Of a stretch of DNA of 44,028 nucleotides, positions 1,164-43,938 are shown in pieces; the first letter of the stretch is position 1; the number at the start of each line of letters is the position of its first letter. The stretch is from Acidisphaera sp. S103. Its GTDB lineage: Bacteria > Pseudomonadota > Alphaproteobacteria > Acetobacterales > Acetobacteraceae. A program made the translations under genes and the position numbers. The stretch is from the NCBI RefSeq assembly GCF_009765975.1, contig NZ_LMUJ01000024.1:155161-199188 (forward strand). Direction: 5' to 3'. The notes below the pieces were generated by a model. That model ran no database searches. It saw nothing but the letters and a program-made list of their open reading frames with translations, and was not told the origin of the DNA.

Positions 1164-1323
1164 GAGCTTCCTCGTGATGTTGTTTTTCTCGAAGTCGGCA
1201 GGCAGCGCTATCCTATATCCGGGTTGGCTGAGTCTCCAAATCCCGGGGTCGCTTTCGGGTCTGTCATTGCGGTTTTGGTATGATTTCTGCGCGATGACCG
1301 TGGGGTTGTTGGCGGTTCTTTTT

Positions 1324-1600
1324 TTAAGGCGGATTAGCGGGATAAGGGGGGGATGAAGGGGATTGTTGTTGCGATGTGGGGAAGTTGGACTTTGGGTCTG
1401 GCTCAGTTGTTTGGTGGGTGTAGGGGATTGTTGGCGCCCTTTATTCATTTCGATGTTGCGGGACTGCTTGTTTACTCGGGGCGGTGACCGTTTTGTGTTC
1501 GACCATGTGTTACGTTACGGTGGTGGAGTTGGATAGCCGGGTGCCGCAGAAGAACGGCGCATCTCCTTCATTCATCTGCATCTCGCTTAATCAGCCTTAA
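1324..1600. mobile_element. MITE-like element with GxxExxY-cassette-type inverted ends
   Basis: A 277-bp non-coding segment. The left end begins TTAAGGCGGATTAGCGGGAT and continues with GGGATGAAGGGGAT. The right end, on the opposite strand, reads TTAAGGCTGATTAAGCGAGA and continues with GAATGAAGGAGATGCGC. The ends are therefore imperfect inverted repeats of about 40 bp and match the ends of the GxxExxY cassette at 43357-43819. The interior encodes nothing recognisable. It sits about 160 bp upstream of the amidohydrolase start, so it may affect that gene's promoter region. No clear target-site duplication was seen. Confidence 0.55.
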
Positions 1601-2100
1601 ATGACATGCCTCGCGCCAGTGACGACACAATTGGCGGGGGCACGAATGTCCTACCCCGCGCGTGCTGATGGAGACGGCTGATCGGGCTTGGGTTGATGGA
1701 CGTTGGCATAGGCAACTGGTTTACAGAATTTCCGAAGAAGGCGTGGATGCCGATCTGCATCGGCATGACGGGAGGGCGGTAGCTTGGCCCGGGGGGTGTC
1801 CGTTACGGCCTTGGAACATAGAGGATGGCCTGGCGGGGCTCCGGCTGCAACAACCACGAATCCCCCTGTATCCATCTGCATCCCGCTTAATCCGCCTTAC
1901 AGGACCTGCCTCGGCGTCAGTGACGACACATGACGGGGGCACGACCGTCGCTATCCCGCGCATGCTGATGGACGGTGGCATAGGCAACTGGTTTACGGAA
2001 CTCCCGAAGAACGCGTGGATGCCGATCTGCATCGGCATGACGAGAGGGCGGCGGCGTGACGGAAGGGCGGTGGCGTGACCGGGGCTGCTTTAGCATGATG
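1601..2100. repeat. Two diverged copies of a roughly 200-bp composite repeat
   Basis: This stretch has no gene. Copy 1 (about 1571-1775) and copy 2 (about 1871-2050) share, in order: a TTAAGGCGGAT-type end read in reverse, CAGTGACGACACA, a GGGGGCACGA block, a GCTGATGG block, GGCATAGGCAACTGGTTTAC, CCGAAGAA and a GCGTGGATGCC hairpin followed by GGCATGACG. Copy 1 has about 17 extra bases in the middle. Each copy ends in a perfect hairpin, 8-bp arms ATGCCGAT/ATCGGCAT around CTGC (1747-1766 and 2019-2038). A third copy lies at about 25800-25996. Short open frames across this region are by-products of the repeats. From 2051 to 2173 nothing further was recognised except degenerate GGCGTGAC-type tails. 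Confidence 0.75.
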
Positions 2101-25532: not shown

Positions 25533-25638
25533 TGTGGGATCGGCTGGTCGGGGGCTGTGACAAGTCTGTGTTGGTTTCGGGCCGCGAATGTCCTATCTCG
25601 CACGGGTCGTCAGGGCGGCTTGTGGTCGCTGCTTCTTT

Positions 25639-25824
25639 TTGAAGGCGGATGTAGCGGGATCGAGGGGGATGAAGGGGATTTTCTTCTCGCTCAGGACTGC
25701 GCGGCGATGCGGCGGACTTCGGTTTTGGATCGGCCGATAAGGCATAGGCTATGATCTGTTTTGGGCCCGGCTTCGACGGCTGCGCATCTCCTTTATCCCT
25801 CTACATCCCGCTTATCCGCCTTAA
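25639..25824. mobile_element. MITE-like element with GxxExxY-cassette-type inverted ends
   Basis: 186 bp, non-coding. The left end reads TTGAAGGCGGATGTAGCGGG then GGGATGAAGGGGAT. The right end on the opposite strand reads TTAAGGCGGATAAGCGGGAT then AGGGATAAAGGAGATGCG. The ends pair as imperfect inverted repeats of about 40 bp and match those of 43357-43819 and 1324-1600. The middle (about 100 bp) holds no recognisable reading frame. Right after it comes the third copy of the composite repeat seen at 1571 and 1871. Confidence 0.6.
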
Positions 25825-25829
25825 AATTT

Positions 25830-43229: not shown

Positions 43230-43356
43230 GACGGCACCTAAATAGAAACGCTCCATGGGTTGTCCACGCCCGGAGGGGTTCATGGTGCGTTAATACAAGC
43301 GGCGTACGACCTTCGCGCGCCCTTCAGGCGTCAGCACGGACGCCAAGGCAGGTTTC

Positions 43357-43819
43357 TTAAGGCGGATTAGCGGGATGAAGATGGATGAAAGGGATGCGCG
43401 ACTGTGGGAGCCGGTCACCGAACGGATCATTGGGTGAGCTTTTCGGGTTGCTAATGCGTTCGGTCACGGATTCATTGAAAAGGTCTACGAGAAAACCCTT
43501 GCGCATGAGATGCGAAAGTCCGGACTCGGCGTTTTGCAGCAGCGGGGAATCGTAGTCTTTTACGACGACGTGCTTGTCGGCGAATATACCGCCAACCTCG
43601 TAGTCGAGGATCAGCTCATCATCGAACTCAAGTTCGTCGGCGCGCTGAGCGACGCGCATGTCCCGCAACGCCGAAACCATCCATGGGCGCCCGGCAAGCT
43701 GTTTCGCCTCCCGATCAACTTTGGCCGACCCAAATTCGAAATCCGCCGCATCACCGCCCAAGCCTGATCGCGAGCGCCATCCCCTTCATCCCCTCCTTAT
43801 CCCGCGTCATCCGCCTTAA
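43357..43819 (+). mobile_element. GxxExxY cassette bounded by inverted repeats
   Basis: 463 bp. The left end reads TTAAGGCGGATTAGCGGGAT then GGATGAAAGGGATG. The right end, opposite strand, reads TTAAGGCGGATGACGCGGGA then GGGATGAAGGGGATG. The first 11 bases are identical and the rest matches with small indels over about 40 bp. The only gene inside is the GxxExxY reading frame, which begins within the left repeat and ends a few bases before the right one. No transposase is encoded, so movement would need help in trans. Flanking duplications are not evident. Confidence 0.65.
43375..43767 (+). pseudogene. GxxExxY family (PDDEXK-like) protein interrupted by an in-frame TGA
   Basis: ATG 43375 opens a frame reading KMDERDARLWEPVTERIIG, a TGA at 43435-43437, then AFRVANAFGHGFIEKVYEKTLAHEMRKSGLGVLQ. 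The family's VTERIIGAAxxVxxxLGxGFxExxYxxALxxEL continues straight through the stop. GHGFIEKVY is the GxxExxY motif. QQRGIVVFYDDVLVGEYTANLVVEDQLIIELKFV carries the D...ExK core of a PDDEXK nuclease fold. Near the end QRRNHPWAPGKLFRLPINFG replaces the usual QCxNYLxATGLxLxLLINFG, with many substitutions but an unbroken frame. It is probably a recently inactivated gene; an ATG at 43510 could make only a fragment. The family has no proven function. Confidence 0.8.
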
Positions 43820-43938
43820 AAAGGGAAAAGCCATGGCCATGACTCCCGCGGGCTGGGTTTCATTCATGGCGGGTCGGACTGCCGGTGGAAACTAATACCA
43901 GCAGCCGTTGACGTCGACTCTTTGGCAACGGTCGCCCG

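Follow-up and report, generated by a model that had tools for sequence, protein, structure and literature searches.

GxxExxY proteins carry merely a descriptive name, and the locus at the far end of the 44,028-nucleotide stretch of Acidisphaera sp. S103 DNA analysed here (the window) raises the question of what such a gene does between two inverted repeats. The initial annotation had seen in gene and repeats a transposable or recombination cassette lacking its own transposase, an interpretation which, taken as a whole, is partly supported by the analysis below. The repeats, or arms, are real and general, and the unit that they mark occurs in multiple copies, is present or absent at a given site and is exchanged with edges near the arms. 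The best reading of these observations is that GxxExxY would be the DNA-acting enzyme of an undescribed mobile unit of ~0.5 kb, with the arrays that make up the arms serving as its cis sites; the enzymatic step is one that we infer.

Arms and broken gene in the window

Imperfect inverted arms surround the GxxExxY gene, as had been proposed. Their local alignment (match 1, mismatch -1.5, gap -3/-1) has a score of 22. When arms of this geometry were placed at random in the window 3000 times, the score never rose above 17.5, which rules out a chance origin, and an inverted-repeat search of the window finds a 14-bp core at 43354-43367 and 43809-43822 with 93% identity. The frame between the arms (C72:198574-198912 in the profile search) matches PF13366 above the curated cut-off with an E-value of 1.1e-23. 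The assignment of the reading frame to the family thus holds, but the gene is broken: the ATG at 43375 is followed by an in-frame TGA at 43435 ahead of the final stop at 43765-43767, and the conserved Q-xxx-Y is lost and reads QRRNH. The description of the repeats as abutting the start and stop does not apply to the left arm, which contains the ATG, and the inner repeats of this arm therefore encode the first residues. The same overlap is seen in other copies, where it gives rise to protein starts such as MNADKR or MHAEHADE.

The sequence shared by the copies continues beyond the arms, for up to ~120 bp on the left and ~100 bp on the right (window ~43235-43918), the widest stretch common to the window end (L020) and other copies in blastn being query 1396-2079. 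The arms are thus not the outermost ends of the subfamily of the window copy, here called type A, the boundaries of which appear in the alignment as CTAAATAGAAACG ... GGAAACTAATACC and are not reached by all copies. Two further copies in the window are gene-less (Table 1). The copy near the window start contains an exact TTAAGGCGGAT, the core of the ends, at 1324, and locus L037 matches both of its arms; two interior frames have no Pfam match. An Rfam search of the window returns a group II intron only, with no rRNA match and none inside the element; domain V of the intron adjoins the element at the contig end (43939-44005, minus strand, 58.4 bits). On balance, the window feature is probably a decayed copy in a Rhodopila-like subfamily of small mobile DNA units, on the arrays of which a putative GxxExxY enzyme would act.

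Table 1 Features of the unit and of its gene-less copies in the window
Feature	Position	Strand	Evidence
Whole type A unit common to same-genome paralogues, boundaries approximate	43235..43918	+	blastn and boundary alignment
Left arm, array of GGAT-containing units, holds the start codon	43354..43396	+	local alignment score 22
GxxExxY (PDDEXK_3) gene, broken, QxxxY lost	43375..43767	+	PF13366 E 1.1e-23 with one TGA; translation
Right arm, inverted version of the left arm	43778..43822	-	repeat search and local alignment
Gene-less copy, arms 25638-25679 and 25786-25826 around a gene 3'-end remnant	25638..25826	-	arm score 20.5; type A 3'-end similarity (L038)
Gene-less copy, good arm from 1323, decayed arm 1580-1601	1323..1601	.	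arm score only 13

Copies in the genome and genus

The genome of the window (8.37 Mb, 116 contigs) contains 27 PF13366 matches at ~25 places, many of them intact and many broken, with flanks that are mostly unrelated; L010 and L014 have flanks in common, the pattern of a segmental duplication. TTAAGGCGGAT occurs at 26 exact sites against 0+1 for the reversed control. Fourteen of these lie beside GxxExxY matches and the other 12 fall in 11 regions without one; the copies inside the ends may be intact, decayed or without the gene. Inspection by eye and blastn shows pieces of the type A unit in most of the 11 regions, and little besides arms in L043 and L037. The sites inspected in this way contain GxxExxY, a piece of this gene, or nothing recognised as a gene; in the gene-less copies, nine interior frames have no Pfam match. 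In L041 a type A GxxExxY gene is split by an IS1595-type transposase gene (PF12762, PF12760), and the other half of the split gene seems by eye to lie in L026 (L041 and L026: C85, ~230500-233050). Next to the right end of type A copies there is often another dispersed repeat (ATACCAGCNGCCGTTGACG...), as in the flanks of L023, L027, L028 and L035.

A second end, GGAACCGCNNATGAACGC, is found with at most one mismatch at 15 sites in the same genome against none for the control. The sites form six gene-less inverted pairs of 115-541 bp; at one further site (C110) the end forms the left arm beside a GxxExxY gene, and the right arm of that gene departs from the pattern; two sites are unpaired. In blastn between the six pairs mainly the arms are alike (16-36 bp) and the interiors are mostly unrelated, with a common interior stretch of ~41 bp in L337 and L340. 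One pair has a weak protein match (27% over 63 residues), which may represent a gene remnant.

Within the genus, 19 of 23 genomes have 2-14 PF13366 matches, compared to three of 16 more distant genomes of the class, and among the 120 homologues listed, two carry the name Rhodopila, Acetobacteraceae. At one type A site, four genus relatives lack the unit and have only unrelated spacer between the same genes; the relatives are too diverged for any junction of the window-genome copies to be placed to the base. Other GxxExxY arms in the genome and genus differ in sequence, with examples built from CGCAGATGAACGCGGATGAA, CACGGAG units or CCCAGAGGTCCCAGAGG. The TTAAGGCGGAT-type ends pointed out initially are real, and they are a local form of an array motif that is much more general. 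With 300-bp flanks, 14 of 38 genome and genus loci have an arm score of at least 17.5, as opposed to two of 456 mismatched pairs, and 24 of the 38 have no clear arms at this cut-off. Some arms of L072, L009 and L271 form inverted pairs within themselves, which places a hairpin-like unit on a side of the gene. Dispersal of the unit is well supported.

Arrays and the protein between them

The arms are found far beyond the genus. The main sample, drawn from many phyla with one genome per species and one peptide pattern, comprises the best 80 of 573 matches listed, of which 78 are testable with 250-bp flanks and two are too short. Arms score at least 14 in 56 of the 78 loci against six of 269 same-locus shifted controls, and at least 20 in 40 of the 78 against one of 269. 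When the left flank of one locus is paired with the right flank of another, the respective thresholds are reached in 59 and six of 780 combinations, which exceeds the shifted control owing to the motif common to the loci. Among neighbouring ORFs six of 110 score at least 14, of which four are GxxExxY genes, leaving two of 106. These two look by eye like nuoE and trpG (L188:542-1009 and L178:1382-1951) and lie between two CRCNRAG arrays, one of which possibly comes from a neighbouring GxxExxY unit. In a second sample, limited to the phylum of the Planctomycetaceae record L160 and to 200-bp flanks, 30 loci were taken from 30 of the 36 matching genomes among 79, one of which (that of L160) had already supplied another locus; inverted arms are present in 25 of the 30 loci and in one of 112 controls. 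Clear arms are lacking in 22 of the 78 main-sample loci and five of the 30 second-sample loci. Such ends are carried by related genes in the same genome, in the genus and in other phyla.

The arms are arrays: of 112 arms, 58 have a best lag of 8, 21 a best lag of 9 and nine a best lag of 10, and the 8-10 bp unit has the common core CRCNRAK. In 42 of 53 loci the arms contain the core at least four times, as does none of 366 control windows; the motif for this count was drawn from the same loci, the arms of which had been selected beforehand by arm score. The second sample has two or more units per side in the expected direction in 20 of 30 loci against three of 112 controls, and with the motif reversed in direction six of the 30 pass. 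The type of array follows the GxxExxY tree, with 12 changes compared to a shuffled mean of 17.4 (3 of 300 as low), and for the CAC/CGC type 10 compared to 17.1 (1 of 300 as low), on a quick tree in which 30 of 57 inner branches have support below 80 and which was built with seven more rows than the array test. For the tree and motif set three loci with stops were dropped, and three of the remaining 53 have no clear array type. The link between array and protein could reflect shared descent of one linked unit.

Arms are not restricted to GxxExxY. Among the 30 best loci of PF05635 four-helix genes (L203-L232), taken from the same set of genomes with 250-bp flanks, 23 have arms against none of 103 controls. 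Here the unit is strictly 7 bp, with matches of 0.53, 0.48 and 0.46 at lags 7, 14 and 21 compared to ~0.30 in shuffled arms, so that the array unit depends on the protein family. Genes of PF05635 (23S_rRNA_IVP) number up to 22 per genome and are present in 38 of the 50 genomes of the GxxExxY locus set. A PF05635 four-helix partner acting in trans on the copies in the genus was considered and set aside, with matches in none of 29 genus genomes by a search that is also silent in control genomes and hence no proof of absence. It is quite possible, if still tentative, that both the GxxExxY proteins and the unrelated PF05635 proteins serve as mobility factors in an undescribed class of ~0.5-kb elements that spans phyla and has family-specific inverted arrays (8-10 bp CRCNRAK and strictly 7 bp, respectively), and that many dispersed intergenic repeats in bacterial genomes are gene-less derivatives of these.

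What the GxxExxY protein might do is suggested by its conserved residues. All 11 relatives searched match both TIGR04256 and PF13366, and one query has 6049 clustered homologues at an E-value of 1e-10 or better. G30, G32, E35, Y38 and K86 are invariant in 73 relatives, D74, E84, Q98 and Y102 are found in at least 90% of them, and a Q-xxx-Y occurs anywhere in 71 of 76 sequences. The order D ... ExK ... QxxxY is that of RecB/Cas4-like PD-(D/E)XK nucleases, and GxxExxY proteins share it. Five of the 11 relatives have weak Cas4 profile matches (best 7.8e-4), and no relative was found in the PDB by sequence; in one study (PMC8934634), the same place was given as a GxxExxY domain by the pipeline and as cas4 by another tool. 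GxxExxY is thus predicted to be a PD-(D/E)XK nuclease with RecB/Cas4-like motifs, and dN/dS of 0.05-0.17 in 12 overlapping pairs shows that purifying selection acts on it.

The cassette of the initial annotation is supported by both checks that the annotation itself had set as possible refutations, namely the ends on related genes and the existence of filled and empty site pairs, in none of which the insertion junction is placed to the base. The claim that the cassette lacks its own transposase fared worse: GxxExxY itself is the best candidate enzyme, since no other intact gene family is recognised as regular content of the ends, and since array type goes with protein clade and the protein is kept by purifying selection. 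The full unit would consist of a single GxxExxY gene between two inverted CRCNRAK arrays with a repeat every 8-10 bp. The protein would bind the arrays and nick or cut DNA either there or at the target, and the unit would then be copied into intergenic sites by repair or recombination in a homing- or REPIN-like manner, without target duplication. The protein might also act in trans on gene-less copies. Among the loci compared no transposition event was seen. Direct repeats of at least 3 bp flank 22 of 56 loci compared to 18.5 expected, which is no signal of a target-site duplication and discounts DDE transposition with such a duplication.

Alternatively, the unit could be a non-autonomous passenger, with the arrays recognised by another host or mobile enzyme and GxxExxY carried as cargo, which we regard as unlikely. 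Cargo status would agree with the six gene-less pairs, alike mainly in their arms, and with the nuoE-like and trpG-like genes that also lie between arrays. The genome-wide search for an outside enzyme covered the Y1 transposase family (PF01797), which has no match in the window's genome (97% complete) and matches in just five of 29 genus genomes; RAYT mobilisation of the window-genome copies was accordingly dropped. A DDE-type transposase is likewise not seen as regular content of the ends, given what the inspected TTAAGGCGGAT sites hold and the nine interior frames without Pfam matches, and in L041 the IS1595-type transposase interrupts the GxxExxY gene. Nor does cargo status sit well with an array unit that changes from one protein family to the other and an array type that tracks the GxxExxY tree.

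Exchange at one site and relation to known systems

The gap between radA and the gene for a FAD-dependent protein in Bacteroides offers a view of filled and empty states at a single site. Of the 30 best loci from 149 genomes together with L233, 29 of 31 are alignable; 21 contain the unit and eight a 37-81 bp unrelated spacer, proportions which are not a frequency given how the loci were chosen. The flanks of the empty L257 and the filled L237 are 96-97% identical. In L238 and L239 the element is 97% identical and the flanks 90% and 82%, a case repeated by L239 and L240 which is in effect one event, and these are the only two among 210 pairs in which the element is clearly more alike than the flanks. 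Conversely, L239 and L244 have flanks with 90% and 92% identity and elements that are just 62% identical and of a different array type. Cassettes at this site are thus present, absent or swapped near the arms. The fit of left and right arms within loci, when summed, has a mean of 25.9 compared to 19.3, unmatched in 20,000 permutations, although, as many arrays are alike, only six of 21 loci find their best partner, ties included, in their own right arm. Protein distances of element and flank correlate only in part in a Mantel test (r 0.49, n=20, 0 of 5000 permutations), from which L242 was left out as it has no usable frame.

The exchange at this site could be ordinary homologous recombination, and it has been weighed whether the whole phenomenon is a nuclease locus, selfish or regulatory, that owes its spread to such recombination and to segmental duplication, with the arrays as operator or protection sites. 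The alleles exchanged between conserved genes in Bacteroides and the flanking sequence common to L010 and L014 would fit such a locus. The ~25 places with mostly unrelated flanks in one genome and the mostly unrelated interiors of the gene-less pairs, however, require an ectopic dispersal step, which makes this reading rather improbable. Least plausible is that the arms pair in the transcript, as in a 23S rRNA intervening sequence, and that the arrays are kept as an RNA stem: the agreement of left and right arms within each Bacteroides locus and the arms of PF05635, a protein named after rRNA intervening sequences, would suit it, but no Rfam match lies inside the element, a stem has no need of a tandem unit, and the arm mismatches in the sense transcript are symmetric (111 G-U and 111 A-C for GxxExxY, 26 and 29 for PF05635), so that, with no G-U bias, the arms look maintained as DNA.

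A small DNA-acting enzyme of a mobile unit thus remains the preferred reading of GxxExxY. If the arrays are its sites, a large orphan family gains a substrate, a testable activity and a biology. Minimal mobile units would then exist that have one PD-(D/E)XK gene but no known transposase, and this would account for a class of short repeats scattered through bacterial genomes. The enzyme on offer would be small, would act on DNA and would have a target motif that can be read and that varies with the clade. The initial annotation knew of no description of such ends, and none was found in the full-text literature searched, the scope of which excludes bioRxiv and most subscription papers and, for long lists, covers the top 10-12 entries; the array strings occur in no relevant paper of that literature, and the passages that name GxxExxY in the two papers found (PMC8934634 among them) are not about ends.

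Among the known systems, ordinary insertion sequences differ in their carriage, since at E 1e-5 GxxExxY is found in only eight of 72,556 plasmid records and in none of 50,697 phage records, which counts against plasmid or phage carriage as an explanation. MITEs are gene-less insertion-sequence derivatives bounded by inverted ends and in this respect resemble the gene-less derivatives described here, which differ in their tandem-array ends, the lack of a target-duplication signal and the lack of a DDE-type parent as regular content. PD-(D/E)XK homing endonucleases such as I-Ssp6803I are encoded by a small nuclease gene that is copied into an allelic site, to which the filled/empty and filled/filled exchange at the Bacteroides site may be compared, whereas GxxExxY units have inverted arrays at both ends and occupy many unrelated sites, with no intron or intein host seen. 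The intervening sequences with S23p (PMC4990558) reside in 23S rRNA and are excised by RNase III. They are likewise selfish-looking elements of ~0.4-0.5 kb with one small gene, and PF05635 genes are also armed here, but GxxExxY units lie between genes and their arms have no RNA-stem signature. REPINs (Bertels and Rainey 2011, PMC3116915) are short inverted units in extragenic DNA for which a dedicated enzyme, RAYT, has been proposed. RAYT is a tyrosine (Y1) transposase, whereas here a PD-(D/E)XK gene lies between the ends of full units, in a genome with no Y1 match, and the arms are arrays of an 8-10 bp unit; the likeness is in the extragenic dispersal of short inverted units with many gene-less copies, here exemplified by the six gene-less pairs.
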